Source: an uncultured Naasia sp. (GTDB lineage: Bacteria; Actinomycetota; Actinomycetes; Actinomycetales; Microbacteriaceae). Taken from it: DNA of 64,000 bases. The notes under the pieces were generated by a model. It made no database searches. It was not told where the DNA came from and worked only from the letters and a program-made list of their open reading frames with translations. Positions 24,325-40,616 of this stretch are shown here, one piece after another (position 1 is the first letter of the stretch; each line of letters begins with the position of its first letter). The stretch spans positions 186,001 through 250,000 of the forward strand of contig CAJYYA010000008.1 of assembly GCA_913778905.1 (NCBI GenBank), written 5' to 3'. The position numbers and the translations under genes are program-made.

Positions 24325-24501
24325 ATGACCGACTCGACGAATCCGACGCCCGATGCGCCTGCGACGCCCGACGCGCCCATCGACGAGAGCGGCACTCCGC
24401 TGCAGGATGTCGACGGTGGTCGCCCATGGTGGCTCTCGAACGTGGAGGTCGTGCACCCCATGCGCAAGCCCCAGCCCGCGGAGCCGCACGCGTCGGAGTG
24501 A
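24325..24501 (+). CDS. Double-glycine leader microprotein, copy 1 (58 residues)
   Basis: ATG 24325 with GGGAG upstream, TGA at 24501. Begins MTDSTNPTPDAPATPDAP, an acidic, Thr/Pro/Ala-rich leader, then LQDVDGG and an aromatic core RPWWLSNVEVVHPMRK with a longer tail. It shares leader style and the GG boundary with five other small ORFs in 28.5-37.6 kb but is the most divergent. It sits directly downstream of the anchored hydrolase gene in the same direction, and may be co-transcribed. Not assigned to any family I know; export by a double-glycine (C39) peptidase transporter is an inference. Confidence 0.6.
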   Translation: MTDSTNPTPDAPATPDAPIDESGTPLQDVDGGRPWWLSNVEVVHPMRKPQPAEPHASE

Positions 24502-24550
24502 CGTGCCATAGTCGACTCGACCTCGCTTCCACTTGCCGGGTTGCACGAGC

Positions 24551-25028
24551 ATGTGGGGGACTGTGAGCCAGCAGCGACGAAGAGTGATGATCGGGGCGGC
24601 TGTCATCGCCGGGCTCATCCTCGTTGCCGTCTGCGCTATCGGCATCAGCCTGCTGCTCAACTTCCGACCTTCGACGCCCGAGCTTCGAGCCCTGCAAGCC
24701 TTCCGCGAGGACGCCCACGCCGCACCTCTCGGAGAAATCTCCTGCGAGTACTTCAATGACCCCCCCGCCCTGGGAGCCCGGCCGCCCTTTCCTGCGCTAC
24801 ATCGTGAGCGGCGTCTCGATGGAGGACTTCAAGAACTTCTATCTCGAGAACGGTTTTGAAGATCCCTACCCCTATCAGACCGAGGATTTCCTTACTCTTC
24901 GATCTCGTGAAGCAGGCGTGTCGATCCTGTACTCGGCTGTAGCACCGTCGGCCGACGCCGATCGCACCAATGACGTTGAATGCGTCCTGCCCACCGCAGG
25001 TGGAGTCGCGGTAAACGCATTCTCCTGA
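24551..25028 (+). pseudogene. Membrane-anchored small protein, frameshifted at a run of seven C
   Basis: The first part (from ATG 24551 or GTG 24563) encodes MIGAAVIAGLILVAVCAIG, one membrane helix, and continues to EISCEYFNDPP. At C 24760-24766 the frame must shift by one base to continue as WEPGRPFLRYIVSGVSMED and end ...NDVECVLPTAGG at 25028. With six C instead of seven the gene reads as a single 158-residue protein with two Cys flanking the external domain. Either a true inactivation, phase variation at the homopolymer, or a sequencing error. GGGGGA is two bases before the GTG. No family recognised. Confidence 0.7.
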
Positions 25029-25209
25029 TGTCATCTGACTTGGGTGAATGAGACTGATTCGCGCCCACACCGATACTCAGTGATTTTACAGGATCGCAAC
25101 TTGGCGACATCTGGGGGATACGGGGGACTGACAGGCTCCCGTTGAGGTTCCCGGACCGCACAGCTCAGGCCTGGGGCCGATTCCCCCGCCCTGACCAGAA
25201 GGCTCCTGT

Positions 25210-26415
25210 ATGCCTGCATCGCGCTCCCCTCTGCCCGCTTCGACCCGATCCAGATCGAGGTCCCGACTCCTCCTGCTCCTCGGGGCCGCAGGCGCGATGT
25301 GCCTGGCACTCGGCTCGGCCAGCACGGTCGCAGCCGTCGTGGCGCTCAACGCCGGTACCCGAGCCACGGCTGAGCTCAGTGCCGAGAAGGGGGAGATCGG
25401 GGACCCGGTCACACTCGACCTCGCCGCCCTCGACGCCGACGACCTCTACTCCGCCACCGTCCGCATCGGCTACCGCCCCAGCGTCGTCGGGCTCGATCTC
25501 GACTCGTTCGCCAGCGACTTCGACGGGATGTGGAGCGCCGTCGGGAACGCGGACGGCGACCACGCCACCGTCGACCTGACGGTCACCCGACTCGGCACCT
25601 CCGACGGGGTCGTCGGCGCGGCCACATTCGGCACCCTCGATTTCGTCGGCATTGCGGCGGGAGACCCCGGTGTCACGGTCGAGACGCTCACCGTGGTCGA
25701 CTCGAGCCTCGAGGTGGTGAGCAGCGAACCGAAGACGTCGCTGTCCTACACCGTCCTCGCCCCGCCGCCCCCGCCGGAACCCGAACCGCAGCCCGAGCCC
25801 AGCGAACCCGCCGCGGAGAAGCCGGTGGTCTACAACCCCGTCTTCGTCACCACGGGCGAGAGCGGCCGCACCCCCGCCCGCTCGTCGACCGGAACGTCGC
25901 CCGGTCTCACCGCCTCGCCCAGCACCGACAAGCCGATCAGTATCACTCTCGGCAGTTCCCGCGTCGCTCTCGGCGGCACCGTCGACATGACCGTCAAGAA
26001 CGCGCCGGCCGACACCGAACTGCAGGTCGCCTTCGTCAGCGACGGATCGAGCCTCGGCTCCTTCCGATCCGATGCCACCGGATCCGCCGTCGGTCGCCTC
26101 GCCGTACCGCGCACCGCACCCACCGGGCAGCAGGAACTCGCCATCTCCGCCGGAGGCAACGTGATCGGCAGCGCCCAGGTCGAGATCACCGCGACCACGA
26201 CCGCGTCGCCCTCACCGAGCGCGAGCGCCGGCGCGGGAGCCGCGGCCCCGTCCGATTCGGATGGCTCCGGTGCCGTCGCGCTCGACGCGGATCAGGCATC
26301 CCAGTCGGGAATGCCGTGGCTCATCGGCGGCCTCATCGTCGGAGGACTCGGCCTCGTGGCAGTGATCCTCGCCGTCATCACCGCGGCGCGCCGCTCGAAG
26401 GCGGCAGGCGCATGA
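25210..26415 (+). CDS. Membrane-anchored cohesin-domain protein
   Basis: A 401-residue protein. Signal peptide or anchor at LLLLLGAAGAMCLALG, then a domain at about residues 50-178 with cohesin features: GEIGDPVTLDLAALDADDLY, ATVRIGYRPSVVGLDLDSF, LTVTRLGTSDGVVGAATFGT and a closing strand ending LSYTVL. A Pro-rich spacer (PPPPPEPEPQPEPSEP) leads to a second beta domain (about 240-330), a Ser/Ala linker and a C-terminal helix with Arg/Lys tail; there is no LAxTG motif. The next gene, overlapping by four bases if its first ATG is used, encodes a dockerin-bearing secreted amidase, so the two should bind each other on the cell surface. Cohesin call is by pattern; binding is inferred. Two GGGGGA boxes lie about 90 bases upstream. 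Confidence 0.8.
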   Translation: MPASRSPLPASTRSRSRSRLLLLLGAAGAMCLALGSASTVAAVVALNAGTRATAELSAEKGEIGDPVTLDLAALDADDLYSATVRIGYRPSVVGLDLDSFASDFDGMWSAVGNADGDHATVDLTVTRLGTSDGVVGAATFGTLDFVGIAAGDPGVTVETLTVVDSSLEVVSSEPKTSLSYTVLAPPPPPEPEPQPEPSEPAAEKPVVYNPVFVTTGESGRTPARSSTGTSPGLTASPSTDKPISITLGSSRVALGGTVDMTVKNAPADTELQVAFVSDGSSLGSFRSDATGSAVGRLAVPRTAPTGQQELAISAGGNVIGSAQVEITATTTASPSPSASAGAGAAAPSDSDGSGAVALDADQASQSGMPWLIGGLIVGGLGLVAVILAVITAARRSKAAGA

Positions 26416-26474
26416 GCCCCGCGAACTTCCGCGCCGACCGTTCGACCAGCGACACCTCCCTACGAAGGACCACC

Positions 26475-28307
26475 GTGAAACGCATCACCGCACGCCTGGC
26501 CGTCGCCGGCCTCGTCGCCGGAGGAGCCGTCGTCACTGTCGCCGGCCCCGCCGTCGCCGCCGACGACTCCGTCAGCTACCGCGCCCCCGAATACCAGGTC
26601 GGAGAGCTGACGGGCGACCACAAGATCGACACCGACGACATCGCCCTCGCGCTCGCAGCCGTCGGAACCGCACGCGGCGACGCGGGATGGGCCGCCGTCG
26701 CGGCCGCCGACTCGGACTCCGACGGGATCATCACCGCCCGCGACGTCGCCGCCCTCTCTCGCCAGTACATCTACGACGACCGCGACTTCGAGCTCCTCGA
26801 GGCCACGGTCGTCGACATCCAGAAAGCCATGACGGCCGGGGTGCTCACGGCGCGCGAACTCACTCTCGACTACCTCCAGCGGATGGTCGCCTACGACCGC
26901 ACCAAGGGTCTCGACACCTCGTCGCCCGAGGCGCAGGCCGAAGCCCTCGAGTCGATCATCACGACCAACCCCGACGCACTCGCCCAGGCGGATGCACTCG
27001 ACACCGAGCGCGCCGCGACCGGTCCACGCAGCATGCTGCACGGCGTCCCGGTCATCGTGAAGGACAACATCAACACGGTCGGCATGCCGACGACCGCAGG
27101 CTGCGCCTGCCTGTCCGACAACGTGACCGCCACCGACGCGGAGACGGTGGAGCGCCTCAAGGCGATGGGCGCCATCGTCATCGCGAAGGCAAACCTCTCC
27201 GAGTTCGCGCAGGCGACGACCACCTCGATCAGCAAGTACGCGACCACGCAGAACGCCTACCGCCTCGACAAGGCGTCGGGCGGGTCGAGCGGCGGCACGG
27301 GAGCGTCCGTCTCTGCCAACTTCGCCGCCTTCGGGTTGGGGACCGACACGGGCGGATCCGTCCGCGTCCCGTCGTCGTTCCAGGGCTTGGTCGGCATTCG
27401 CCCCACCATCGGACTCGTCAGCCGTGAGGGCGTCATCCCGCTCGACCTCTACCGCGACACCGTGGGCCCGATGGCCCGCTCCGTCTCGGACGCGGCGTTG
27501 GCGCTCGACGGCCTCGCCGGGAGCGACCCGATGGACGCCGTCACAGCAGGCGCCGACGCGGCCAAGCCCGCGTCCTACGCCGAGTCGCTCGACGCGAATG
27601 CCCTCCGCGGGGCGCGGATCGGGTACATCTCCGGACTGGTCTCCGGCAACTCACGCGCTCCCGGCTTCCGGTTGGTCGACAAGGCGCTCGCGGATCTCCG
27701 CGGTGCCGGCGCCACGGTCATCGACGTCGGAGCCTTCGGGACCGTCAACGGTGCCGGCATCGGCTCGCTCCCCAGCAGCCGCTCCTTCACCCACGACATG
27801 GACGACTACCTGGGCACCTACTACGAGCCGGGATTCACGTTCATGGATCTGGCCGACAAGGTGGCCGCAAGTGAGGCGGCAGGCGACCGATCGTCGTCGT
27901 GGCCGGTGTCGACCATCCGCGGGTGGGCAAGCACCACCGAGGCGCAGCGAGACGCGGCGTACCCCGCCTTCAGTGCGGCGCAGGCCGCCATGCGAGCCCG
28001 TCTCGACGCTCTCATGGCCGCCAACGACCTCGACGCCCTCGTCTACCCCAGCACCGGTGGTGTGGTCGGCTCTCCCGCGAGCAACAATCGGATCAGCGCC
28101 TATAGCGGCTATCCGGCGATCTCGGTTCCCATGGGCTTCGCCGATTCGAGGCTCGACGACACGTCGAATTCGGGAACGCCGATGGGGCTCGAGTTCATCG
28201 CCGAGGCGTACTCGGAGTCGAAGCTGATCGGTCTGGCCTACAGCTACGAGCAGGCCACGAAGAACAGGCGCCCGACGACGCTGTTCCCGGACCTGCCGAA
28301 GGGCTGA
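26475..28307 (+). CDS. Secreted amidase-signature enzyme with N-terminal dockerin
   Basis: 610 residues from GTG 26475, preceded by AAGGA at ideal spacing; an in-frame ATG at 26412 overlapping the previous stop would add a non-signal extension. Signal peptide VKRITARLAVAGLVAGGAVV. Residues about 43-99 form a type I dockerin with two Ca-binding repeats: GDHKIDTDDIALALAAVG and DSDSDGIITARDVAALSRQ. The amidase-signature domain follows with Lys196 (VIVKDNIN), the SGGSSGG loop (Ser271/Ser272) and nucleophile Ser295 (DTGGSVRVPS), a complete Ser-cisSer-Lys triad. It hydrolyses an amide outside the cell; substrate unknown. It is paired with the cohesin gene just upstream. Confidence 0.9.
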   Translation: MKRITARLAVAGLVAGGAVVTVAGPAVAADDSVSYRAPEYQVGELTGDHKIDTDDIALALAAVGTARGDAGWAAVAAADSDSDGIITARDVAALSRQYIYDDRDFELLEATVVDIQKAMTAGVLTARELTLDYLQRMVAYDRTKGLDTSSPEAQAEALESIITTNPDALAQADALDTERAATGPRSMLHGVPVIVKDNINTVGMPTTAGCACLSDNVTATDAETVERLKAMGAIVIAKANLSEFAQATTTSISKYATTQNAYRLDKASGGSSGGTGASVSANFAAFGLGTDTGGSVRVPSSFQGLVGIRPTIGLVSREGVIPLDLYRDTVGPMARSVSDAALALDGLAGSDPMDAVTAGADAAKPASYAESLDANALRGARIGYISGLVSGNSRAPGFRLVDKALADLRGAGATVIDVGAFGTVNGAGIGSLPSSRSFTHDMDDYLGTYYEPGFTFMDLADKVAASEAAGDRSSSWPVSTIRGWASTTEAQRDAAYPAFSAAQAAMRARLDALMAANDLDALVYPSTGGVVGSPASNNRISAYSGYPAISVPMGFADSRLDDTSNSGTPMGLEFIAEAYSESKLIGLAYSYEQATKNRRPTTLFPDLPKG

Positions 28308-28322
28308 TCCTCTGTTCGCAGC

Positions 28323-28361
28323 GCGGATGCCGCCACCCGGTCTGCGGGTGGCGGCATCCGC
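28323..28361 (+). terminator. Terminator hairpin after the dockerin-amidase
   Basis: GCGGATGCCGCCACCCG and CGGGTGGCGGCATCCGC form a perfect 17-base stem with a 5-base loop, 15 bases after the stop codon. Confidence 0.85.
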
Positions 28362-28367
28362 GAGTGA

Positions 28368-28470
28368 CTTGTGATCTATGTATAGCTAGACAGTCTAAAT
28401 ATGTCCTAGAGGCATACGTTGTGGGCTTTTCTGGGTAGGCGCCGGGAGTTTTAGAAAAACAGCGGCCGGA
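28368..28470 (+). promoter_or_regulatory. AT-rich promoter region of microprotein copy 2
   Basis: After the terminator the sequence becomes unusually A/T-rich for this window (TGTATAGCTAG, TCTAAATATG, TTTTAGAAAAAC) and contains the inverted repeat TAGAC-A-GTCTA at 28387-28397. It ends about 30 bases before the microprotein ATG. Likely holds its promoter; I cannot fix the -35/-10 pair. Confidence 0.4.
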
Positions 28471-28501
28471 GCACTATGTACCCGACACGAAAGGTCAAGA
28501 A

Positions 28502-28681
28502 ATGAACGGAAAGAATCTCTCGGCCGCCGAGCTCCGCGCGCCCGAGCGTACGCCGGCCCTCGCTATCCGAGAGGGATACCTCGAAGACGATCAGGTCGCC
28601 CACGTCGTGGGCGGCGCAGGGAACGACATGCCATGGCAACGTCTCTTCAGCGGCCGCAGCGTCAACGTCCAACCCCGGTAA
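28502..28681 (+). CDS. Double-glycine leader microprotein, copy 2 (59 residues)
   Basis: ATG 28502 with GAAAGG eight bases upstream; TAA at 28681. Leader MNGKNLSAAELRAPERTP then EDDQVAHVVGG, and a core containing MPWQRLFSGR and a SVNVQPR tail. The core motif W-x-R-[LVI]-x-x-GR is shared with copies 3 and 4. Flanked by its own terminator (28697-28728) and an AT-rich promoter region, so it looks like a single-gene transcription unit. The leader pattern (acidic, hydrophobic at spaced positions, ending GG) matches double-glycine secretion leaders; no modification enzyme or transporter is nearby. Confidence 0.7.
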   Translation: MNGKNLSAAELRAPERTPALAIREGYLEDDQVAHVVGGAGNDMPWQRLFSGRSVNVQPR

Positions 28682-28696
28682 CCAGCCTCGCTCCGA

Positions 28697-28728
28697 CGGC
28701 CCCGTCCATGCGGCGCGCGACGGGGCCG
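28697..28728 (+). terminator. Terminator hairpin after microprotein copy 2
   Basis: CGGCCCCGTC and GACGGGGCCG form a perfect 10-base stem with a 12-base loop, 15 bases after the microprotein stop codon. Confidence 0.75.
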
Positions 28729-28850
28729 AACCATCGCCGCCGACCGGACGAGACAACGCTCGGCCTCTGCATCCACCCCTCGATGACGGGGTTTCGCCGG
28801 TTCGCGGCCACCGCCAAGCTATGAGGCACGACCGCGAGGGGGATATCGCG

Positions 28851-31175
28851 ATGACAGCTGAGCAATTCCGCACACGCATGCCGTTCGGGACGCCGAGGGG
28901 CGGGTCCCGGAGACTGGCCGCGGTGCTCGCCGTGGGGCTCGTCTCGAGCTCGGTGGGCGGCGCGGTCGTCGCCGCCCCCAGCTCGGCGCAGGCGGCCGAG
29001 GTCTTCACCCTGGAACGTGAAGTCACCATCACCCCTGATAGTCCGTCCAAGACGTGGAGGGTGCCGGCGGGGATCGTCGGCGCGATCGATCTCGTCGTGT
29101 CCGGCGAGCCCGGCCACGCCACCTCGTCGACGGGCGCGGGGGCCGGCGCGAAGCTGTCCTTCTCCACGGTCCGGGCCGCCGGTGAAGAGCTCACGGTCGT
29201 CTTCGGTGCTCGCAATCGAGCGGAGTACGCGTCGCTCGGAGGTGGGGCGGGCAGCGGCCTGCCGCCCGAGTTCGTAGCCGGGCTTCGCAATTACCAGTTT
29301 CCGTACCTGGCCAAGAACGCGTCGAGCGCGGGTGGCGGGGACGCGACCGCGGTGCTCGTCGGGTCCGCCGGAGACCGATGCGACAGCGACGCCGAGGTTC
29401 TCGCGGTAGCTGCCGGAGGGGGCGGCGCCGGTGGCCGGACCGTCGGCAAAGTCGCGAACATGCCGATGATCCCGTTCAATTCCTTCAGCGGCGACCCCGG
29501 GAAGGACGCCACCCAGCTCACCCGCTCCGTCCGAGTGACGGCGTCGGCTCTCTGCAGAACCCCCAACACGAACTCGGCCGGTGCGGACGGCCGCGGTGAG
29601 ACGCTCCTATTCCACGCGGCGGGAGGTGGCGGAGGCGGAGGCCTGACGGCCGGGAACGGCGGAGGGCCCGATAAGGCCTCCCTCCGAGGACTCATCGTTC
29701 GCGACGTCGTTCCCGCCGGGGGCGGTGCCGGCGGCGCCAGCTACATCTCGCCCTCCGTCTGCGGCGACTGCGCGGCGCAGACCGTGACGCCCACGACAGC
29801 GGCGCGCTCGACGACGATCCGGTGGCAGGAAAAGCACACCCCCGTCATGACGGCCGTCCCCAGGGACGGTCTGCTCGTCGTGGAGGTCAAGAGCGCTCAG
29901 ACGGGCCAGCCGCTCTCCGGAACGATCACCTTGCGCCGCCCGGACGGAACAGTCGTCGCGAACGGGGTGCAGGGAACGGGCCGGTGGGAGCTCGACGTTT
30001 CGGCACAGGCGGGCTCGGCTCAGGATGTCGCCGTCGAATTCGCCTCCGACAGCGACGCGGCGATGTCCGGTCGAATCGAGACGACGCTCCCGAACGTTCC
30101 TGTGCAACCCGTCAGTGCCCCCGCCGTTCCGACGACGGTGAAGGTTGAGATCCCCCGCGCGGCTGAACCGTCGGCAGTGGGCGGGGCGACGACCGTGCCG
30201 GTCGGCGAGCCCATCCAACTCGCCGCCCTCGTCTCCGACAGCGCGGGGCAGGGCGTCGGCGGCGGGTTGGTCGAGTTCCGGGATGACGACGTCCTGCTGG
30301 GCCTCGCGCCCGTCGAGGACGGCCAGGCGACGCTCGAGCTCGACGGTCTCGACGGGATGACCAACCGCATCGAGGCTCGCTATCTCGGTGTCCCCGGCGT
30401 GACCACGGCGAGTGAGTCCGATCCCGTCACGCTCGCCTACGCTTCGGCCGTTATCCGCATCGCCGTCGATCCCGGGCCTGCGGAGTTCGTCGCCGACACC
30501 GACGGGGAGGCCACCATCACGGTGAGCGCTTCGTCCGGGTCGCCCGCGCCCGCCGGCGATCTGTCCCTTCACGCAGCCGACGGTCAGGAGCTGCTGCGAC
30601 TCGTCGACGCCGAAGCCGAGCGGCTCCCGGATGGCGCGATGCAGTGGCGCTATCCGCTGTCGATGCTCACGTCGGGCGATCACGAGCTCTTCGCCTCATT
30701 CGACGGGGATCCAGGCTTCGCAGATGCCCGATCGGACCCGTGGTCGAACCGGGTGACGCCGCGCGCGACCCTCCTCTCCGCCCAGGTCGCCTCTCGAGAC
30801 GACGCGCGCATCGTCCTCGACGTCGCAGCCGCGGTCGACGGCTCGGGCAAGGACCCTCAGCTGCCCAGCGGTGTCCCGCTCGGGTCGGTGAAGGTCCTCC
30901 AGGGGGACGTCGAGGTCGCCTCAGGAGACGTCGACGGCAGCGGATCGATCACGATCGACCGCGACGCATTGCGCGGCGAGGGCGATCTCCGGGTCGAGTT
31001 CGCACCCGACAACGTCGATCTCGCGCCCTCGGCCATCACCGTGTCGCTCCGCAGCCGACTCGCAGCCACCGGCGTCGAACCCGGGACCGGGGCGGCAGCC
31101 GCCCTCGGACTGCTGGCGCTGGTCGTCGGCGCCGCGTGCGTGACAGCCCGCCGCCGTCGCGTGAACGCCAGCTGA
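28851..31175 (+). CDS. Wall-anchored Gly-rich / Ig-like adhesin
   Basis: 774 residues from ATG 28851, with GGGGGA seven bases upstream; the in-frame ATG at 28821 lacks a binding site. Signal peptide LAAVLAVGLVSSSVGGAVV, cleaved near AQA. The first domain (about 40-330) is a Gly-rich fold with GGGGAGG and AAGGGGGGGL stretches, and Cys pairs near CDSDAE and CGDCA. Then Ig-like repeats (VPVGEPIQLAALVSDSAGQG, LVEFRDDDVLLG). It ends LAATG, a helix and ARRRRVNAS, a class E sortase-type signal. Probably a surface adhesin or scaffold. Followed by two overlapping microprotein genes. Confidence 0.82.
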   Translation: MTAEQFRTRMPFGTPRGGSRRLAAVLAVGLVSSSVGGAVVAAPSSAQAAEVFTLEREVTITPDSPSKTWRVPAGIVGAIDLVVSGEPGHATSSTGAGAGAKLSFSTVRAAGEELTVVFGARNRAEYASLGGGAGSGLPPEFVAGLRNYQFPYLAKNASSAGGGDATAVLVGSAGDRCDSDAEVLAVAAGGGGAGGRTVGKVANMPMIPFNSFSGDPGKDATQLTRSVRVTASALCRTPNTNSAGADGRGETLLFHAAGGGGGGGLTAGNGGGPDKASLRGLIVRDVVPAGGGAGGASYISPSVCGDCAAQTVTPTTAARSTTIRWQEKHTPVMTAVPRDGLLVVEVKSAQTGQPLSGTITLRRPDGTVVANGVQGTGRWELDVSAQAGSAQDVAVEFASDSDAAMSGRIETTLPNVPVQPVSAPAVPTTVKVEIPRAAEPSAVGGATTVPVGEPIQLAALVSDSAGQGVGGGLVEFRDDDVLLGLAPVEDGQATLELDGLDGMTNRIEARYLGVPGVTTASESDPVTLAYASAVIRIAVDPGPAEFVADTDGEATITVSASSGSPAPAGDLSLHAADGQELLRLVDAEAERLPDGAMQWRYPLSMLTSGDHELFASFDGDPGFADARSDPWSNRVTPRATLLSAQVASRDDARIVLDVAAAVDGSGKDPQLPSGVPLGSVKVLQGDVEVASGDVDGSGSITIDRDALRGEGDLRVEFAPDNVDLAPSAITVSLRSRLAATGVEPGTGAAAALGLLALVVGAACVTARRRRVNAS

Positions 31176-31326
31176 TCCGGGGCCCGGATCCGCGTTCGGC
31201 GAATGGCGTCGGAGGCGCGTCGGCCGATCCGCCCCTGTACGAGGGGTGGCGGGCGCGTCTCACGAGGAGCAAGCTGAGGTGGCTCGGCGCGCGACCGCCG
31301 GGTCTTCAGCGAGAACGGAACAGGAC

Positions 31327-31470
31327 ATGACCACTCACGACGGAACGACGGGAGCGAATCCCGTCGACACCGACCGCGCACCCGAGGACGGTGACACGGT
31401 CGTCGAGCACGTGACAGGCGGCGGGGGAGACTTCCGGTGGCCCTGGCAGCGGGTGGCGGACGGCCGATGA
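31327..31470 (+). CDS. Double-glycine leader microprotein, copy 3 (47 residues)
   Basis: ATG 31327 with AGGA just upstream; TGA at 31470 overlaps the ATG of copy 4 (ATGA), so the two are translated together. Acidic leader MTTHDGTTGANPVDTDRA, then VVEHVTGGGG and a 13-residue core with RWPWQRVADGR. The core matches copy 2 (PWQRLFSGR) and copy 4 (WTRIFSGR). It lies 151 bases downstream of the adhesin gene, on the same strand. Too short and acidic to be an enzyme; best read as an exported peptide precursor. Confidence 0.72.
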   Translation: MTTHDGTTGANPVDTDRAPEDGDTVVEHVTGGGGDFRWPWQRVADGR

Positions 31471-31637
31471 CCGAGCACGATGCGTCTGCCACGACGCCGG
31501 ACTCCGTCGCGCCCATGCCGGAAAGCGAGCAGGACGCCACCACCCCGGCACCTCAGAACGAAGCCATCCACGACGACCTGCTCGACGGGGTCGCCGGAGG
31601 GGGCGGCGCGTGGACGAGGATCTTCAGCGGGCGCTGA
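31467..31637 (+). CDS. Double-glycine leader microprotein, copy 4 (56 residues)
   Basis: ATG 31467 within the ATGA overlap with copy 3; TGA at 31637. Leader MTEHDASATTPDSVAPMPES is rich in Asp/Glu/Thr/Pro; the junction reads IHDDLLDGVAGGGG and the core is only AWTRIFSGR. The DDLLDGVAGG segment is a good match to double-glycine leader consensus of bacteriocin and pheromone precursors. Followed by a strong hairpin terminator. Tandem, coupled synthesis with copy 3 suggests two peptides acting together. Confidence 0.75.
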   Translation: MTEHDASATTPDSVAPMPESEQDATTPAPQNEAIHDDLLDGVAGGGGAWTRIFSGR

Positions 31638-31660
31638 CGCCGAAAGACGACATCGAGAAC

Positions 31661-31700
31661 CGAAAGAGGGTCGGCACCCCAGGACGCCGACCCTCTTTCG
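31661..31700. terminator. Bidirectional terminator after microproteins 3 and 4
   Basis: CGAAAGAGGGTCGGC and GCCGACCCTCTTTCG form a perfect 15-base stem with a 10-base loop between the microprotein pair and a convergent membrane-protein pair. Confidence 0.85.
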
Positions 31701-31731
31701 TTGTCGCCGAACCGAGTCCGGTGGCCGGATG

Positions 31732-31962
31732 TCAGGCCTTGGGAGTCGCCCATCGGCGCCTGGCCGTCAGAGCTGCAGCGACGACGAGCATCGCCCAGGA
31801 CGCCATGAGAACGAAGTCGGCGAGATCGAGTGGACCGTCCGGAGCGGCGTTCTCGTCTTTGACGGACCACAGGAATGCGCCGACCACGAAGCCGAGCACG
31901 GCCACGAGATAGAGCGTCGTCAACGGCCGGCTGAACCGGGCGGGAGAGGAAAGTGCGCTCAA
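31732..31962 (-). CDS. Small two-helix membrane protein
   Basis: 76 residues from a TTG at 31962 that overlaps the TGA of the upstream gene (TTGA), with AAAGGA further upstream. Two hydrophobic segments, TTLYLVAVLGFVVGAFLW and FVLMASWAMLVVAAALTA, joined by an acidic loop, and a basic C-terminus. No family recognised. It converges on the microprotein pair, so an accessory or protective role for those peptides is conceivable but rests on position alone. Confidence 0.65.
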   Translation of the reverse strand: MSALSSPARFSRPLTTLYLVAVLGFVVGAFLWSVKDENAAPDGPLDLADFVLMASWAMLVVAAALTARRRWATPKA

Positions 31963-32495
31963 TGTGAGAACAGTCCTTTCAGAGTCGCGGCGCCGACGCC
32001 CATGGCGGCAGTGAGGACGGCCGACAGCAGGCATACGTACCAGCTGGCGCGCCGCTCGCTCATCGCCACGTAGCCGAGCACACCCAGCATCGCGACTGAC
32101 GAACCGGACGCCACCAGATAGCTCTCGTAGTCACCGATGATGTTGAGCGTGCCGAGAAGAAGCGCCACGGTCGGCACGAGCGGGCCGAGGAGGATGCCGT
32201 AGGAGTGATCCAGGGCGCGCCGGAACGACTCGCGAACTCCCACGGTGCGATTGTCCCGCGACCCGTGCGACGCGACGGCTACGGCGATGACATGGGCCGC
32301 CCAGATCGACACGGAGGTCACCGCCCCGTGGAAGAACAGGTCCTGGCTCTTCTGCCCGTCCTCGGAGAAGGCGAGCATCGCGAGGAAGAGGATCGTGCCG
32401 TATATGGCTTCCGGCGTCGCGATGGCATCCCGAATCATGTAGCGCCGCGCTGTGGCGAGCTCAGGCTCTTCCGCGACCGTTCCCCCGTGTGTCAC
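31959..32495 (-). CDS. Uncharacterised membrane protein
   Basis: 178 residues from GTG 32495, with four or five helices (IYGTILFLAMLAF, IWAAHVIAVAVASHG, GILLGPLVPTVALLLGTLNI, VAMLGVLGYVAM and a C-terminal one). GGGGGA lies just inside the start. No catalytic motif. Coupled to the downstream 76-residue membrane protein by a stop/start overlap. Divergent from ugd. Confidence 0.7.
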   Translation of the reverse strand: MTHGGTVAEEPELATARRYMIRDAIATPEAIYGTILFLAMLAFSEDGQKSQDLFFHGAVTSVSIWAAHVIAVAVASHGSRDNRTVGVRESFRRALDHSYGILLGPLVPTVALLLGTLNIIGDYESYLVASGSSVAMLGVLGYVAMSERRASWYVCLLSAVLTAAMGVGAATLKGLFSH

Positions 32496-32610
32496 TTTCT
32501 CATCATCCCGAATAGGGCAGCAGATCGGGAGTTCCCACTACGGGTGGCATCGAAGTCGCTCGCTCCGCCGTCACCCCTTCCGGTCAACCCCGTCTGCTAG
32601 GAAGAGCGGC

Positions 32611-33921
32611 ATGCGTCTGTCTGTCATCGGTTGCGGCTATCTCGGAGCGGTCCACGCCGCCGCCATGGCGTCCATCGGCCACGAGGTCGTCGGGATCGAC
32701 GTCGACGAGAACAAGATCGCGTCGCTCTCGAAGGGCGAAGCGCCCTTCTTCGAGCCGGGCCTTCCCGAGATCCTCGCCGAGGGCATCGCCTCCGGCCGGC
32801 TGCGCTTCACGACCGACATGTCCGAGGCCCGCGGCGCCCAGATTCACTTCGTGGGAGTCGGCACCCCGCAGCAGCGCGACGGTTACGCCGCAGATCTCAC
32901 CTACGTCAATGCCGCCATCGACGGGCTGCTGCCCTACCTCGCCGCGGGCGACGTGGTCGCCGGGAAGTCGACCGTCCCGGTCGGAACGGCCGCCGGCCTC
33001 GCGCCCCGCGTCGCCGAGACGGGCGCGACCCTCGTCTGGAATCCCGAGTTCCTGCGGGAAGGGTGGGCCGTCCAGGACACCGTCGACCCCGACCGACTCG
33101 TGGTCGGTATTCCGGCGGGAGATGCAGGAGAGGAGGCGGCGGATCTGCTGCGCGAGGTCTACCACCCCTCCGTCGCCAAGGGCACGCCGTTCATCGTCAC
33201 GGACCTCGCCACGGCGGAACTCGTCAAGGTGTCGGCCAACGCGTTCCTGGCCACCAAGATCAGCTTCATCAACGCGATGGCCGAGATCGCCGAGGTGACG
33301 GGAGCCGACGTGACGACCCTCGCCGATGCGATCGGCCACGACGTTCGCATCGGCCGTCGCTTCCTCGGCGCCGGGATCGGGTTCGGCGGTGGCTGTCTGC
33401 CGAAGGACATCCGTGCCTTCTCGGCCCGCGCCGAGGAGCTCGGCCGTGGTGAGTCCGTCGCGTTCCTCCGCGAGATCGACGCCATCAACCTGCGTCGCCG
33501 CGACCGCGCCGTCGACCTCGCGGTCGCCGCCCTCGACGGGCAGGTGTTCGAGAAGAAGATCACGCTCCTCGGAGCCGCTTTCAAGCCGCACAGCGACGAC
33601 ATCCGCGATTCGCCGGCCCTCGACGTCGCCGTCCGACTGCGCGGACTGGGCGCCTCGGTCACCGTGACCGACCCGGCCGCCATCGAGAACGCCCGTCGCG
33701 TGCACCCGCAGCTCACCTACGTGACCGACCGCGACGAGGCGCTCGCCGACGCCGACGTCGTCATCGTGGTGACCGAGTGGGACGAGTACCGCCGTCAGAT
33801 GAGCCCCGAGCACGTGAGCTCGCTCACGACAGGCCGCATCGTCATCGACGGCCGCAACTGTCTCGACGCGGCCGCCTGGCGTGCCGCCGGCTGGACCTAC
33901 TTCGGCATGGGACGGCCCTGA
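32611..33921 (+). CDS. ugd: UDP-glucose 6-dehydrogenase
   Basis: 436 residues from ATG 32611 (AGGAAGAG upstream); the reading frame is open further upstream but without homology. MRLSVIGCGYLGAVHAAAMA is the NAD-binding motif, NPEFLREGWAVQD the substrate-binding region, and GGGCLPKDIRAF carries the catalytic Cys262. It oxidises UDP-glucose to UDP-glucuronate in two steps, supplying uronic acid for the polysaccharides made by the flanking clusters. It stands alone within the surface-protein block and ends at a strong terminator. Confidence 0.95.
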   Translation: MRLSVIGCGYLGAVHAAAMASIGHEVVGIDVDENKIASLSKGEAPFFEPGLPEILAEGIASGRLRFTTDMSEARGAQIHFVGVGTPQQRDGYAADLTYVNAAIDGLLPYLAAGDVVAGKSTVPVGTAAGLAPRVAETGATLVWNPEFLREGWAVQDTVDPDRLVVGIPAGDAGEEAADLLREVYHPSVAKGTPFIVTDLATAELVKVSANAFLATKISFINAMAEIAEVTGADVTTLADAIGHDVRIGRRFLGAGIGFGGGCLPKDIRAFSARAEELGRGESVAFLREIDAINLRRRDRAVDLAVAALDGQVFEKKITLLGAAFKPHSDDIRDSPALDVAVRLRGLGASVTVTDPAAIENARRVHPQLTYVTDRDEALADADVVIVVTEWDEYRRQMSPEHVSSLTTGRIVIDGRNCLDAAAWRAAGWTYFGMGRP

Positions 33922-33935
33922 CCTTCCCCCCGAAC

Positions 33936-33974
33936 GACGAAGGCCCGCCCCGATGCTCGGAGCGGGCCTTCGTC
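33936..33974. terminator. Bidirectional terminator after ugd
   Basis: GACGAAGGCCCGC and GCGGGCCTTCGTC form a perfect 13-base stem with a 13-base loop between ugd and the convergent surface-protein operon. Confidence 0.85.
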
Positions 33975-33989
33975 GTCGAGAGCGACCGA

Positions 33990-35432
33990 TCAGGCTCGGC
34001 GTCCGGCCCGGCGCGCGACGATCAGAGCGGCACCGGCGAGCAGGAGCAGCCCGCCGAGGGGCCACGATCCGGAGTCGGGGCCCGTCGCGGCCAACCGCGC
34101 TGCCGAGGGGCCGGTCACCGCGGCCCGGTCGACGACGATCGACAGCGCCCCAGCCGCGAACTGACCCTGCACGACCGCGCTCGACACGGTGACGCCATCG
34201 ACGGTGACGGTAGCCCGGAACCACTGACGCGGGTCGATGACGAGGAATCCGAAGCGTCCCTCCGCATCGGTCGATACGGGGTTCCGGTCGGTCGCGTAGT
34301 GCAGATCGTCGGAAGCGACCGGTGCGAACGGGCCGTCGGGAGAAGCGGACGACTCGAGCACGACATCCACGCCGGAGAGGGGCTCGCCCCGCCGGTCGGT
34401 GACGGTCGCCGGGGCGACGACCGCCAGATCGATGAAGGTGGCGTACTGCTCACCGCCCTGATAGTTGCGGTAGACGCCGAGCGCGGCGAGCTGGGGACTC
34501 CGATCGAGATCCAGGATGCCGGTCCAGTCGGATCCGTTCCGCGAGAGCTCGACGCGCTGATTATCGCCGTCCGTGACGCTGAGACGGAGCTCGGCCGAGG
34601 TCATCGGGGTGTCGTCCAGCCGGTTGTCGTCTCGCATCCCGTCGGCCAGATCGCCGCCCAGGCGGAACGCCTTCGCCCCGGCGAACACACCGAGGCTGCC
34701 GGTGCTGCCGGCGAAGACGCCTTCGAGACTGCTGTCCTTCTGCAGAGCGGGCGTGATGACGACGCGGCGCAGGGTCTCGTCGTCCGCCCGTACCTCGATC
34801 TGCTGCCCCATCGCCCGGAACGAGCCGTCCTGGAAGAGCGTGTAAGTGTAGTGAGGAGCCGCCGGGAGCCCCTGGAAGATCGCGACCCCGCGAGCGGATG
34901 TCGTCGCCGTGGCCTGCAGCAGACGATCGTCCGTGGACAGGTGGACGGTCGCGCCCTCGACCAGGCCGTCCGTCGGAGTGAGGGCCCCGATCACGATGGT
35001 CGCGTCGTCCTCGCTCGTGATCGGCGCGGATCCGTCCGAAACCACCTGCTTCGAGCCCCACGAACCCGTTCCCGAGACTGTGACGGTGAGCACGGCGCGA
35101 TAGTCGGCGAAACCCGGGAAGTACGAGGCGGAGGTGGCGCCGTCGATGGGTTCGCCATCACGCAACCATCGGTAGGAGAGCGTCGTGTCGGCCGGCCAAC
35201 CCGTCGTGGCGACGGTCATCCGCTGCGCCATGAGCGAGTCCCCCGCGAGGGTCGCCGTGGGCGTCGGATCGGTCACCGGCGCCGAGACGTCGACCGTGGG
35301 GTTGGTGTTCGACGGATCCGGAACCGGAGCCGCGCCGGCCATCGACGGAACCGCGACGGCGGCGAGGACCGCGGCCGTGACCGCCACGGCGCTGATGAGG
35401 CCGCCCGTTCGGCGACGCGACGAGTTACGCAT
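33990..35432 (-). CDS. Wall-anchored Ig-like surface protein (paralogue of next gene)
   Basis: 480 residues. N-terminal signal peptide with RRR (SRRRTGGLISAVAVTAAVLA). A first Ig-like repeat has YRWLRDGEPIDGATSASY; a carboxypeptidase-regulatory-like fold follows (GATVHLSTDDRLLQATATTS, RGVAIFQGLPA) and is repeated near the C-terminus (GVDVVLESSASPDGPFAPVA, AEGRFGFLVIDP). It ends LAATGPDSGSWPLGG, a helix and ARRAGRRA: a class E sortase-type signal. The gene starts 16 bases after its paralogue, so both form one operon. AGGGGA before the ATG. Likely structural or adhesive. Confidence 0.82.
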   Translation of the reverse strand: MRNSSRRRTGGLISAVAVTAAVLAAVAVPSMAGAAPVPDPSNTNPTVDVSAPVTDPTPTATLAGDSLMAQRMTVATTGWPADTTLSYRWLRDGEPIDGATSASYFPGFADYRAVLTVTVSGTGSWGSKQVVSDGSAPITSEDDATIVIGALTPTDGLVEGATVHLSTDDRLLQATATTSARGVAIFQGLPAAPHYTYTLFQDGSFRAMGQQIEVRADDETLRRVVITPALQKDSSLEGVFAGSTGSLGVFAGAKAFRLGGDLADGMRDDNRLDDTPMTSAELRLSVTDGDNQRVELSRNGSDWTGILDLDRSPQLAALGVYRNYQGGEQYATFIDLAVVAPATVTDRRGEPLSGVDVVLESSASPDGPFAPVASDDLHYATDRNPVSTDAEGRFGFLVIDPRQWFRATVTVDGVTVSSAVVQGQFAAGALSIVVDRAAVTGPSAARLAATGPDSGSWPLGGLLLLAGAALIVARRAGRRA

Positions 35433-35447
35433 GGTTTCCCCTATCCC

Positions 35448-36902
35448 TCAGATGCCTGGGCGGTCGACTCGGACCGCAATTCCCCGTCGCCGCGTGCGCG
35501 CCACCGCGAGGGTGATCGCCCCGGCGAGGAGAAGCAGTGCCGCCAACGGCAGCGGCGCGTCGAATCCGGTGGACGCGAGCGTCCCGGACGCTCCGACCGT
35601 CGGCGTCGAGCGGTCGGGGAGGTTCAGAGTGGTCGTGAGGGATCCGGCGGCGAACGGCGCGGTGGTCACCGGGCCGTCCGCCGTGACACCCGCAGCGGAC
35701 ACGCGGACGCGGAAGAACCCGGACGGTGCGGACGGAACGAATCCGAATCGACCCTGCGCATCGGTCGTGGCGGGTACTCGGTCGGTGCCGCCGGCGAGAT
35801 CCCCGACCGCGACCGGGGTGAACGGGCCGTCAGCGGAGGTCGCATGCAACAGGGTCACCTCGGCGCCTCCGACCGGTGCGCCCCGCTGATCGAGCACGAG
35901 GGACGGTGCGGCGATCGTCAGGTCGAAGACGCTCACCTGCTCCTCGCCTCCCGGGAACACCCGTGCGAGACCGGCGGAGGCGAACTGAGGTGCCACGTTC
36001 AGGTCGACCACGCCGACGAAGTCGTCGCCGTCCTTGATCAGCTGCACGTTGTCGGCGTCTCCTTCACGGAGGCTGAGTCGCAGTTCGACGGACTCGACGT
36101 CCGGCTGATCGGCGAGCGCGATGACGGCGGGCTGAGCGAATACCCCGACGCTCCCCGTCGACCCGGTGAAGGAGCCCTCGAGCGTGGCGCCCACGGGCAG
36201 CCCCGGCGTGAGCACGGCGGTGCGCTCCGTGGTCGTCGCCGCCTCCCCCAGGTGGAGATGCCGGACGAGCAAGCGCAGACGGCCGAATGCATCGTCATCG
36301 GTCTGGAAGACGGTGAACTCGTAGTCCGCAACAGGCAGTCCCTGGAAGGTGACGCGGCCCTGGGCGTCCGTGACGCCTTCCGCGCGAAGCCCGCCCGCCT
36401 CGGTGAACAGATAGACGTTCGCGCCCGGGATCGACGCGCCCGACGGGTCGACCGTCGTCACCACGAGAGATGCGTCGTCTCCGCTCGTGATGGGGGCCGA
36501 TTCGGCGCTCGTCACGACGCCGACGGCGCCCGAAAGTGCCGTCGCGGTCACCCGCACCGACAGGCGGGTGCCCCAGTCCGTGAAGCCGGGGAGGTAGCCG
36601 CTCGACGTGGCGCCGTCGATGGCGGCGCCGTCGCGCAGCCACTGGTAGGCGAACGTCGTGCCCGGTTCCCAGTCCTCGAGGCGCACGCTCATCGGCTGGG
36701 CGAGAAGCGCATCCCCTTGGAGAGTCGCGGTTCCCAGAATGGCCGGGGCAGCGGAGGCCGCGCTGTCCGTGCCCGGGACGCCACCCGTGGTGTCCTCGGC
36801 TGCCGAGGCCGTCATGGGAAGCGCGAGCGAGACGAGCAGGAGCGCCGCCGTCGCGCCTCCACCGATCGATGCGCTGATTCGGCGCAGGCGTGAGCGTGCC
36901 AT
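35448..36902 (-). CDS. Wall-anchored Ig-like surface protein (paralogue of previous gene)
   Basis: 484 residues from ATG 36902, with GGGGGA five bases upstream; the longer frame to 37196 has no signal peptide and is rejected. Signal peptide SIGGGATAALLLVSLALP. Same architecture as its neighbour: Ig-like YQWLRDGAAIDGATSSGYLP, regulatory-like domains (GANVYLFTEAGGLRAEGVTD, GRVTFQGLPVADYEFTVF; AEVTLLHATSADGPFTPVAV, GRFGFVPSAPSGFFRV), and LASTGFDAPLPL, a helix and an Arg-rich tail. Tandem duplication is plain from the collinear motifs. First gene of a two-gene operon. Confidence 0.82.
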   Translation of the reverse strand: MARSRLRRISASIGGGATAALLLVSLALPMTASAAEDTTGGVPGTDSAASAAPAILGTATLQGDALLAQPMSVRLEDWEPGTTFAYQWLRDGAAIDGATSSGYLPGFTDWGTRLSVRVTATALSGAVGVVTSAESAPITSGDDASLVVTTVDPSGASIPGANVYLFTEAGGLRAEGVTDAQGRVTFQGLPVADYEFTVFQTDDDAFGRLRLLVRHLHLGEAATTTERTAVLTPGLPVGATLEGSFTGSTGSVGVFAQPAVIALADQPDVESVELRLSLREGDADNVQLIKDGDDFVGVVDLNVAPQFASAGLARVFPGGEEQVSVFDLTIAAPSLVLDQRGAPVGGAEVTLLHATSADGPFTPVAVGDLAGGTDRVPATTDAQGRFGFVPSAPSGFFRVRVSAAGVTADGPVTTAPFAAGSLTTTLNLPDRSTPTVGASGTLASTGFDAPLPLAALLLLAGAITLAVARTRRRGIAVRVDRPGI

Positions 36903-37030
36903 ATCCATCCCCCGGAAATCGTCGGAGCTGTGAAAGCGCCCCGGAACGGACGCTACTATCCGAGCCCGCCCGAGCTGAATGACCACGCGGTGATTGACCC
37001 GCGCACTGGGGCGTGGGCCGAGCGACGATC

Positions 37031-37115
37031 CGCCCGCGAACGGGTGTACCGCGGTGCGGGTCGGCGCCTGCCCGGGTACCTCCTGCTGCCCGCGGACGTG
37101 TCGGAGGTGCCTGCC
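37031..37115 (+). pseudogene. Remnant of a ThDP-decarboxylase gene copy
   Basis: 37031-37063 nearly matches the bases before the start of the decarboxylase at 37910 (CCCGCGAACGGG.TGTACCGCGGTGC), and 37062-37115 nearly matches its codons near 38380-38432 (CGGCGCCTGCCCGGnTACCT, then CTGCTGCCCGCGGACGTGTC). The stretch between is missing, so this is a second copy with an internal deletion of about 500 bases, broken and not translatable as the enzyme. It lies in the 36903-37245 gap, which otherwise holds the promoter of the surface-protein operon. Confidence 0.75.
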
Positions 37116-37245
37116 GAGGCGTCGAAATCCGACCACCCGAGCCCCCCGAAGGGGAGATTCTGGGAAGAGCCGGAGACATGCACACTCGTAAGACACGGCT
37201 GGGCCAGCGTCTCAGCGCCGAAATCTCACGGACGGAACCCCCCGC

Positions 37246-37383
37246 ATGGCCGAGCGCAACCAAACCGAAGCGGACGTCAAGGGCGAGGATCCGACCGGCC
37301 TCCTCGAAGACGAGATCCTCGACACGATCGGCGGCGGCGGCGAAGAGCCCCAGGTGACCCGCCACCGACGCGGCGGTCTGTAG
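37246..37383 (+). CDS. Double-glycine leader microprotein, copy 5 (45 residues)
   Basis: ATG 37246, GGAAC upstream, TAG at 37383. Leader MAERNQTEADVKGEDP, then GLLEDEILDTIGGGG and a basic core EEPQVTRHRRGGL. The LEDEILDTIGG segment fits the double-glycine leader consensus very well. The core lacks the Trp seen in copies 2-4. It precedes copy 6 by 58 bases. It lies next to the decarboxylase remnant, so the region has been rearranged. Confidence 0.62.
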   Translation: MAERNQTEADVKGEDPTGLLEDEILDTIGGGGEEPQVTRHRRGGL

Positions 37384-37441
37384 GCACACGCCGGCACCGC
37401 CGCTGATCACCCGCTCGGCGCCAGAACATAGAAGGACGAAC

Positions 37442-37630
37442 ATGACCGACGACATCCGTCTCGACCACGCCGGAGACGGTCCCCACGACGAGGTCGCGAC
37501 CATCGAGACGGCGGAAGACTCTGTGGCGGCGTCCGATACGCCTGTGGCGGCAACCGAACTGGAGGAGGTCGGCGGCGGCGGCGTCGTCTTCTTCGAGCCC
37601 TTGTTCGGCATCCGGCCCGGGCGGACGTGA
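37442..37630 (+). CDS. Double-glycine leader microprotein, copy 6 (62 residues)
   Basis: ATG 37442 with AGAAGGA at good spacing; TGA at 37630. Acidic Asp/Ala/Thr leader (MTDDIRLDHAGDG...), then ATELEEVGGGG and a hydrophobic, aromatic core VVFFEPLFGIRPGRT. It ends in GR plus one residue, like the GR end of copies 3 and 4. Probably expressed with copy 5. 37631-37909 downstream holds no further gene that I can support. Confidence 0.7.
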   Translation: MTDDIRLDHAGDGPHDEVATIETAEDSVAASDTPVAATELEEVGGGGVVFFEPLFGIRPGRT

Positions 37631-37909
37631 CCCACGCCACCTCCACGCCTCGCACCCGTGACGGGGGAGCATCGATAGGTCGCCCCTGACATCGGCGAGG
37701 TCGCTGGCAGCGGGGCCCCGAGCAGATCCCGCGGCTATCAACGACCTGCTGGAGCCTGAGAGCCTCTCGTCCTCACGGCCGGCCGTCTACTGCCTTTCGC
37801 CCTGGGGACGCGCGGAGGGCCCGACCTGCCCAGGACCTGGGGCACCAGCCGGCCCGCCCGCGAACGGGGTGTACCGCGGTGCTGGGTCGGTGAGGAAATG
37901 TGGCCTCCC

Positions 37910-39990: not shown

Positions 39991-40040
39991 GGGAATCGGC
40001 TCCGCCGAGGGATCGGCTGAGCCGATGCTGCTTTGGTCTG

Positions 40041-40178
40041 CTCTCGGTACGCCTGCGGCTACTCGAGCCGTCTCGGTACGGCCTGGCGGCCTACTCGACG
40101 TCCGGGTTCCGGAGGTCGAGTAGCGGCCGCGAAGCGCCGCGTACCGAGACCGGCCGAGTAGCGGAGCGTATCGAGGCC
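40041..40178. repeat. Cluster of four palindromic repeats (CTCGGTAC...CTACTCGA type)
   Basis: Two units in one direction (near 40041-40069 and 40070-40100: CTCGGTACGCCTGCGGCTAC and CTCGGTACGGCCTGGCGGCC, each ending ACTCGA) face two in the other (40114-40150 and 40151-40178: GTCGAGTAGCGGCCGC..., CCGAGTAGCGGAGCGTATCG). Each unit is itself partly palindromic. Such repeats are common between genes in Microbacteriaceae. They separate convergent genes and could act as terminator or REP-like element. A smaller hairpin ATCGGCT-G-AGCCGAT precedes them. Confidence 0.75.
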
Positions 40179-40616
40179 CTAGCTCCGGTGGGAACGCCCC
40201 GCATAGCGGCGCCAGAGGAAGACGGCGGTTGCTCCGAGGAACGCGCCCGTCGTGTTGGCGAGGACGTCCTGAGCGCTCGCGAAGCGCCCCGGAAGCAGCG
40301 TCGCCTGAGCGGTCTCGATCCCGCACGACACCGCGAAACCGATGACCCCCGCCAGCCACCATCGTCGCGGGAGCAGGAGCAGCGCCGCGAACACCCCCAC
40401 CGGGACGAAGAACGCGATGTTCGCCGTGAACTCCACGAACGCGTAATCGAACGCGCCCGGAACGCCGTGGCGGTGCAGGAATCGCAGCACCCGGCTCAAC
40501 ATCCCGTCGATGGGGCGATCGACCGGTGTCGGATACAACCCGATGGCGAGCACGAACAGGGCGTAGACACCCGCTGCGATAGCCACGCGGCGGACGTGGG
40601 TGCGGCGCGCCGTCAC
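40179..40616 (-). CDS. VanZ family membrane protein
   Basis: 145 residues with four or five helices. DRPIDGMLSRVLRFLH, FTANIAFFVPVGVFAALLL and the C-terminal IETAQATLLPGRFASAQDVL then ANTTGAFLGA follow the VanZ pattern (GR..D...N..G..LG). Some VanZ proteins give low-level teicoplanin resistance; most have unknown roles. Its ATG overlaps the stop of the Doc gene (ATGA), an unusual operon partner. Confidence 0.85.
   Translation of the reverse strand: MTARRTHVRRVAIAAGVYALFVLAIGLYPTPVDRPIDGMLSRVLRFLHRHGVPGAFDYAFVEFTANIAFFVPVGVFAALLLLPRRWWLAGVIGFAVSCGIETAQATLLPGRFASAQDVLANTTGAFLGATAVFLWRRYAGRSHRS

Follow-up and report, generated by a model that had tools for sequence, protein, structure and literature searches.

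The 64 kb window analysed here (64,000 nucleotides; positions 186001-250000 of contig C8 in the 3.22 Mb, 23-contig genome G000 of an uncultured Naasia species) encodes six small double-glycine proteins, named P1 (24325), P2 (28502), P3 (31327), P4 (31467), P5 (37246) and P6 (37442) with the window positions of their open reading frames (ORFs), which are interleaved with genes for wall-anchored surface proteins. It is probable, with an estimated likelihood of about 78 %, that P1-P6 are precursors of small peptides exported by a C39-peptidase transporter encoded on another contig (C12) of the same genome. This proposal is based on the ORFs and their leader pattern, on exporter genes whose C39 motifs contain Cys, His and Asp, and on sibling ORFs located beside the exporter. 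From these we infer the translation, cleavage, export and function of P1-P6, whereby the C39 peptidase domain of the single, probably NHLM-type transporter would recognise an acidic leader of 31-46 residues at positions -7 and -4 and cut it after Gly-Gly, and a cargo of 11-26 residues would be released outside the cell.

Using a strict definition (ATG start, 40-70 amino acids and the pattern [LV]xx[VI]xGG after at least fifteen residues), exactly six ORFs could be distinguished on both strands of the 64 kb, namely P1-P6, and the starts, junctions and lengths of 45-62 residues given in the initial annotation were all reproduced. The pattern was fixed post hoc from P1-P6, and its positions are those found in the literature on peptidase-containing ATP-binding cassette (ABC) transporters (PCATs). 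Dinucleotide shuffling of the four gaps that hold P1-P6 (n=1,000) produced no match in 979 cases and one match in 21, and shuffles of the whole window (n=60) gave between zero and four matches each. With a looser pattern thirteen small ORFs were retrieved, with a G+C content at codon position 3 of 0.77-0.86 in P1-P6 and of 0.55-0.76 in the other seven. The stop codon of P3 and the start codon of P4 share an ATGA overlap. Plausible ribosome binding sites, previously ascribed to most of the ORFs, are visible by eye for P1, P2 and P6, with those of P3-P5 appearing weak. The mutual likeness of the six proteins is loose, as judged by a leader matrix in leave-one-out comparisons. A full-length profile of P1-P6 (A1) matches only these proteins in their own genome, with the next match (E 0.89) in a frame of 1,142 residues, and a search of the plasmid collection with the P3-P4 DNA gave no match. 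Comparison against NCBIfam at E <= 1 returned nothing apart from a match of P4 to XyeA that is below the cut-off, no NHLP or Nif11 leader domain was matched in Pfam or NCBIfam at the same threshold, and a Pfam match of P1 to Sorb (15.2 of 27 bits) fell below the cut-off.

When the cut site is placed so that Val or Ile falls at -4, Leu or Val is present at -7 and Val or Ile at -4 ahead of Gly-Gly in 6/6 leaders, and position -12 is hydrophobic in four of the six, as in PCAT substrates. According to excerpts of two studies, C39-peptidase transporters read leader positions -7 and -4 and the Gly-Gly pair (PMC7018657, PMC6959990), and one studied PCAT relies less on -12 and -15 (PMC7018657). The leaders carry a net charge of -2 to -12, and the cargos are devoid of Cys, have a charge of 0 to +2 and contain aromatic residues in five of six cases. 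The cargos of P2, P3 and P4 are variants of one motif, [PA]W[QT]R[LVI][FA][SD]GR. Comparison of the cargos by 5,000 shuffles, with family-wise p values over the fifteen window pairs, supports the likeness of P2 and P3 (PWQRLFSGR and PWQRVADGR; family-wise p 0.001) and of P2 and P4 (WQRLFSGR and WTRIFSGR; family-wise p 0.001), while P3 and P4 reach p 0.02 singly and 0.08 family-wise, and the remaining pairs are unremarkable.

The initial annotation had proposed export by a C39-peptidase transporter, found no transporter in the window and pointed to the remainder of the genome as the place to look. A single C39 match is present in G000, and it lies on contig C12 (E 4.3e-34), which bears out the statement that the window has no transporter. 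Its surroundings (L002, 19 kb) include, at about 43.2-48.7 kb of C12, an exporter set which is probably of the NHLM type and comprises an HlyD-like adaptor, a C39-ABC transporter of 741 residues and another ABC transporter, for which the best models are TIGR03794, TIGR03796 and TIGR03797 (118, 820 and 602 bits against cut-offs of 156, 853 and 709, respectively). The alignment of the C39-ABC protein with 4ry2, a bacteriocin transporter of solved structure, spans residues 19-724 of 727 (E 2.5e-86), and that with ComA (8hf4) spans residues 23-726. Cys, His and Asp of the C39-ABC protein stand in what we take to be the C39-like motifs. Among the best 80 of 304 exporter relatives in named genomes, which are 26-41 % identical and belong mostly to other phyla, there is one Actinomycetota metagenome-assembled genome, matched over residues 423-726 only. 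Genes for tRNA-Pro and tRNA-Gly are located approximately 1 kb from the exporter. Directly behind the exporter set, in convergent orientation, a putative zinc metallopeptidase is encoded (L002:12738-13583), with sub-cut-off matches to PF15887/PF15890.

Four sibling ORFs, E1, E3, E4 and the frame-broken E2, adjoin the exporter genes divergently on the opposite strand, and the ALDQIAGG junction of E4 is similar to LLDGVAGG of P4 and ILDTIGG of P5. A position matrix built from the leaders of P1-P6 alone was used to score small ORFs (n=2,059) from 35 selected high-G+C loci with a total of 280 kb. The top five outside the window are L129 4137-4295 (19.2 bits), L129 5389-5523 (16.0), L039 722-964 (15.1), E4 (12.9) and E3 (11.2), four of which adjoin C39 exporters. 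Contig L129 belongs to genome G129, the exporter of which is the nearest relative among the loci compared (44 % identity). The L039 ORF is unexplained, this locus having been included on account of its match to an ordinary ABC transporter. In leave-one-out scoring P2 and P3 reach 12.4 and 12.2 bits, and P5 (8.0) and P4 (7.3) lie near the best background ORF (about 7.8, leaving aside the exporter-side ORFs and that of L039). The nine matches of a leader profile (A3) below E 1e-3 in its own genome are all training sequences and the next has an E-value of 5.4; this therefore shows only that nothing else scores. Taken with the single C39 match and the three-gene exporter set, the sibling double-glycine ORFs support the export route originally suggested for P1-P6.

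A number of observations weigh against this proposal. All three exporter proteins score under the NCBIfam cut-offs, and the exporter is unlinked to the genes of P1-P6. Position -15 is not hydrophobic in five of the six leaders, P3 (Ala) being the exception. Two of the six, P1 (-6.0) and P6 (2.4), fail in leave-one-out scoring, falling under the 25 best ORFs listed, and E1 attains only 5.1 bits with the window leader matrix. At small-ORF level, homologues of P1-P6 are absent from eight congeners, of which G003 shows a weak match in a long frame. Homologues of the 973-residue neighbour of P1 occur in 4/59 other relatives, and no such peptide is present in the flanks viewed. Across 398 genomes of the family, where at most seventeen candidates were scored per genome and the loci viewed for ORFs with the Gly-Gly pattern across the match, profile A1 matched frames of 250-1,552 residues in eight others (E 7e-4 to 0.02), and no small ORF of the P1-P6 design was found at these loci. 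The leader profile at E <= 0.1 does not separate C39-bearing genomes (5/20) from other genomes (6/20; G022, G025, G027 and G028 among these twenty are not named in the C39 survey listing), and its only match to a double-glycine small ORF, in G129, is also a training sequence. Double-glycine ORFs are likewise missing, by eye, from the C39 loci L132 and L133 of the family and from 6/12 scanned stretches of the phylum. Peptides and exporter occur together as one event only, from which a linkage between them cannot be proved. Lack of conservation in close relatives had been named in the initial annotation as a reason to abandon the six ORFs. This lack is literally observed in the congeners (0/8), but these, one of which is 68 % complete, are also without a C39 match, and the missing peptides there therefore do not decide the matter.

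C39 matches are rare in the family, taken to be the Microbacteriaceae, with 8/398 genomes containing one, and in the phylum they were obtained for 29/396 genomes, own genome included in both counts. Of the seven other C39-bearing genomes of the family, six loci were viewed by eye, with double-glycine ORFs in L129, L130, L131 and L134. In the phylum, where twelve of fifteen stretches were scanned in the same manner, they occur in four (L169, L172, L175 and L178), and L167 and L176 contain longer ORFs with similar ends. Arrays of five and eleven small ORFs are found near the exporter in G210 and G361, respectively, which belong to the same family and whose loci have 53-54 % G+C. In G758, from outside the class, a double-glycine ORF is located 3' of a large gene with a membrane-anchor-like C-terminus, near a similar exporter set, an arrangement which parallels that of the window and was seen once. 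The NCBIfam matches of nine double-glycine ORFs from other C39 loci are all sub-cut-off, and involve a CTB bacteriocin model for three of these. A bacteriocin-like double-glycine ORF of 88 residues, with cysteines towards its end, is encoded 5' of the C39 transporter gene of G242 (L134:8200-8466).

The interleaving with surface-protein genes noted at the outset was borne out, with P1-P4 directly adjoining such genes and P5-P6 situated divergently upstream of two (Table 1). P1 starts 146 nt 3' of its wall-anchored neighbour. For the Ig-like protein at 28821, 59 other relatives gave no match at E 1e-10 and its own genome a partial paralogue, and the genes at 33990 and 35448 share stretches of DNA that are 71-74 % identical. 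The latter ORF is listed to 37196, its start near 36900 being a guess. Of the two strong terminators at which small ORFs had been said to end, the hairpin 3' of P4 stands, but the other precedes P2, and neither has a T run; the folds 3' of P1, P2 and P6 are unremarkable (z 0.8, -1.5 and -0.7). Since P2-P4 share a cargo motif and enclose one surface-protein gene, and since strong hairpins are found before P2 and after P4, P2, the surface protein, P3 and P4 may form one unit. The block is located within an exopolysaccharide region, in which ten scanned proteins include two glycosyltransferases, a GDP-mannose dehydratase, a UDP-glucose/GDP-mannose dehydrogenase, one Wzy-type and two flippase-type proteins.

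Table 1 Coordinates of the double-glycine ORFs, surface-protein genes and hairpins (window positions, unless a locus is given)
Feature	Location	Strand	Description
P1	24325..24501	+	Double-glycine microprotein, 58 amino acids; leader to LQDVDGG 32 amino acids, cargo 26 amino acids
P2	28502..28681	+	Double-glycine microprotein, 59 amino acids; leader to VAHVVGG 38 amino acids, cargo 21 amino acids with PWQRLFSGR
P3	31327..31470	+	Double-glycine microprotein, 47 amino acids from ATG; cargo with PWQRVADGR
P4	31467..31637	+	Double-glycine microprotein, 56 amino acids from ATG; leader to DDLLDGVAGG, cargo with WTRIFSGR
P5	37246..37383	+	Double-glycine microprotein, 45 amino acids; EDEILDTIGGGG junction
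P6	37442..37630	+	Double-glycine microprotein, 62 amino acids; ATELEEVGGGG junction
Surface protein, 973 residues	21257..24178	+	PETase-like match (PF12740); LAATG, membrane stretch and basic tail (by eye); 5' of P1
Surface protein, 784 residues	28821..31175	+	Ig-like domains (PF16640); LAATG anchor by eye; between P2 and P3-P4
Surface protein	33990..35432	-	CarboxypepD_reg domain; LAATG anchor by eye
Surface protein	35448..36900	-	CarboxypepD_reg domain; LASTG anchor by eye; divergent from P5-P6
Hairpin 5' of P2, 3' of amidase gene	28318-28372; inverted repeat 28322..28362	.	z -6.2; terminator-like, no T run
Hairpin 3' of P4	31655-31710; inverted repeat 31661..31700	.	z -6.6; terminator-like, no T run
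E1	L002 7089-7253	opposite to exporter	Double-glycine ORF
E2	L002, GTG at 6969	opposite to exporter	Leader open; frame broken at G run (by eye)
E3	L002 6585-6740	opposite to exporter	Double-glycine ORF
E4	L002 6384-6521, GTG	opposite to exporter	Double-glycine ORF
G210 and G361 tandem arrays	L130:3681-4591 and L131:14647-17467		5 and 11 ORFs; acidic leaders, A[AS]GG junctions; counted by eye

Further features were observed in the surroundings of these genes. Within 25210-28307 an amidase is encoded whose N-terminal stretch is dockerin-like (PF00404, sub-cut-off at 17.8 bits; cut-off 22.9), and the gene directly 5' of it encodes a membrane-anchored protein with no Pfam match, which looks cohesin-like; the two are perhaps a small cohesin-dockerin pair. 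A small, membrane-anchored-looking ORF at 24533-25028 appears by eye to have its frame broken at a C run, and this break and that in E2 may stem from homopolymer errors in the assembly. Direct repeats link 37052-37116 with 38370-38435 and 37030-37064 with 37854-37890. These are pieces of a thiamine pyrophosphate (TPP)-enzyme gene (37898-39586) and its upstream region, which recur before P5-P6, and the block before P5-P6 looks as if it derived from a duplication or insertion. A repeat of up to 88 % identity, with inverted parts, is shared by 40007-40188 of the window and L002:18443-18752 on the exporter contig.

The genomic setting favours a role of the peptides at the surface or in the matrix over one in antagonism or signalling. 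By analogy, the unmodified cargos could act there together with the wall-anchored proteins and the exopolysaccharide encoded nearby, a tentative assignment that is the likeliest function but that we hold at less than even confidence. Biofilm roles are described, in excerpts of the respective reports, for the double-glycine peptides EbfG (PMC4997328, PMC9981879) and BriC and VP1 (PMC7595303). A narrower version, which we regard as rather doubtful, is that each cargo is the dedicated partner of the adjoining wall-anchored protein, sent out by the C39 exporter and not by Sec, and would join that protein or the exopolysaccharide in an assembly on the wall. The best case for such cassettes, with equally doubtful standing, would be P2, the Ig-like LAATG protein, P3 and P4, with their variants of one cargo motif.

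Two alternatives concern the function of the cargos and leave their export untouched. The peptides could be bacteriocins or other antagonistic peptides which use the same transporter, with the surface-gene setting being incidental. The handling of bacteriocin-like precursors, a classical task of NHLM-type and C39 exporters, as well as the bacteriocin-like ORF upstream in one C39 locus of the family (L134) and the faint, sub-cut-off resemblance of double-glycine ORFs from other C39 loci to the CTB model, are in accordance with this. P1-P6, however, have short, cysteine-free cargos with little net charge and match no bacteriocin family at E <= 1 save for a sub-cut-off match of P4 to XyeA, and no immunity gene was recognised beside them, albeit without a model search for such genes. 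Antagonism is considered unlikely. Pheromones sensed by a receptor, such as competence-stimulating peptide (CSP) and other pneumococcal double-glycine signals, would be compatible with the cargo length, and several diverged double-glycine peptides per genome are known from pneumococcal signalling, according to an excerpted source (PMC7595303). No receptor kinase or peptide-binding regulator was seen by eye beside P1-P6 or in the 19 kb of L002 (no model or genome-wide search was made), and signalling is considered unlikely, slightly more so than antagonism.

It is quite improbable that P1-P6 are cytoplasmic small proteins or spurious Gly-rich ORFs, with a double-glycine likeness due to chance or convergence, even if the lack of conservation in relatives, the weak leave-one-out scores of P1 and P6, and the frequency of Gly runs in G+C-rich DNA would suit such an origin. 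The shuffle test, the G+C content at codon position 3, the ATGA overlap and the -4/-7 pattern argue against it, as does the independent matrix which finds sibling ORFs beside the exporter. Spurious Gly-rich ORFs as such were set aside because of the shuffles and the codon-position G+C content. Least probable of all is a system of ribosomally synthesised and post-translationally modified peptides (RiPPs) with distant enzymes, in which the cargos would be modified, for example by a three-residue cyclophane at W-x-R. This is suggested by the match of P4 to the XyeA triceptide model TIGR04495 (E 0.0097), which is weak and sub-cut-off (16 bits; cut-off 33) and is not shared by the other five. No modifying enzyme was seen by eye in the 19 kb exporter surroundings, a genome-wide enzyme search not having been made. 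A Pfam scan of twenty-two larger window proteins, which was not exhaustive, agrees with the earlier statement that the window contains none.

The best-known double-glycine peptides are the bacteriocins and pheromones of Firmicutes and the matrix proteins of cyanobacteria. G000, one of the few genomes of its family with a C39 match, encodes nine double-glycine genes in addition to a broken one, and P1-P6 are found among wall-anchored protein genes in an exopolysaccharide region. If their cargos work with the wall-anchored proteins, the C39 route would be tied to the assembly of wall and matrix in Actinobacteria, and P1-P6 would provide a small set of exported peptides that is open to testing. 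Their setting gives a hint that such short peptides, once exported, help to build or adjust the surface of the cell. The titles and abstract openings of the open-access literature searched contain nothing on such microproteins encoded next to wall-anchored proteins in this family. Systems of this kind are already known, whereas, within the searches made, the peptide family, its host group and its placement among wall-anchored protein genes appear to be new.

Comparison with the closest known systems shows that the Gly-Gly leader and, apparently, the exporter architecture are shared with the NHLP/Nif11 (N11P) precursors and their TIGR03794/03796/03797 exporter, the precursors of which may also sit far from the export genes (PMC2887384). 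In contrast to NHLP/Nif11 precursors, the P1-P6 leaders comprise 31-46 residues, the exporter is sub-cut-off and no modifying enzyme was noticed. The double-glycine ORFs of G129, G210 and G361 from the same family likewise have acidic leaders with Leu at -7, but are located beside their exporter, while P1-P6 are encoded on another contig among surface genes. With the pneumococcal BriC and VP1 and their ComAB-type PCATs, P1-P6 have in common the double-glycine leader and, by analogy, C39 export and a biofilm role, the exporter here being probably of the three-gene NHLM type (PMC7595303). A further parallel is found in EbfG1-4 and PteB of Synechococcus elongatus, where several small double-glycine proteins, a C39-peptidase transporter and a tie to the surface or matrix are likewise combined (PMC4997328, PMC9981879). 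This likeness is one of functional analogy. Whereas the mature EbfG proteins are of 6-7 kDa and encoded in one operon, the predicted cargos of P1-P6 are of 11-26 residues and are dispersed among actinobacterial surface-protein genes.

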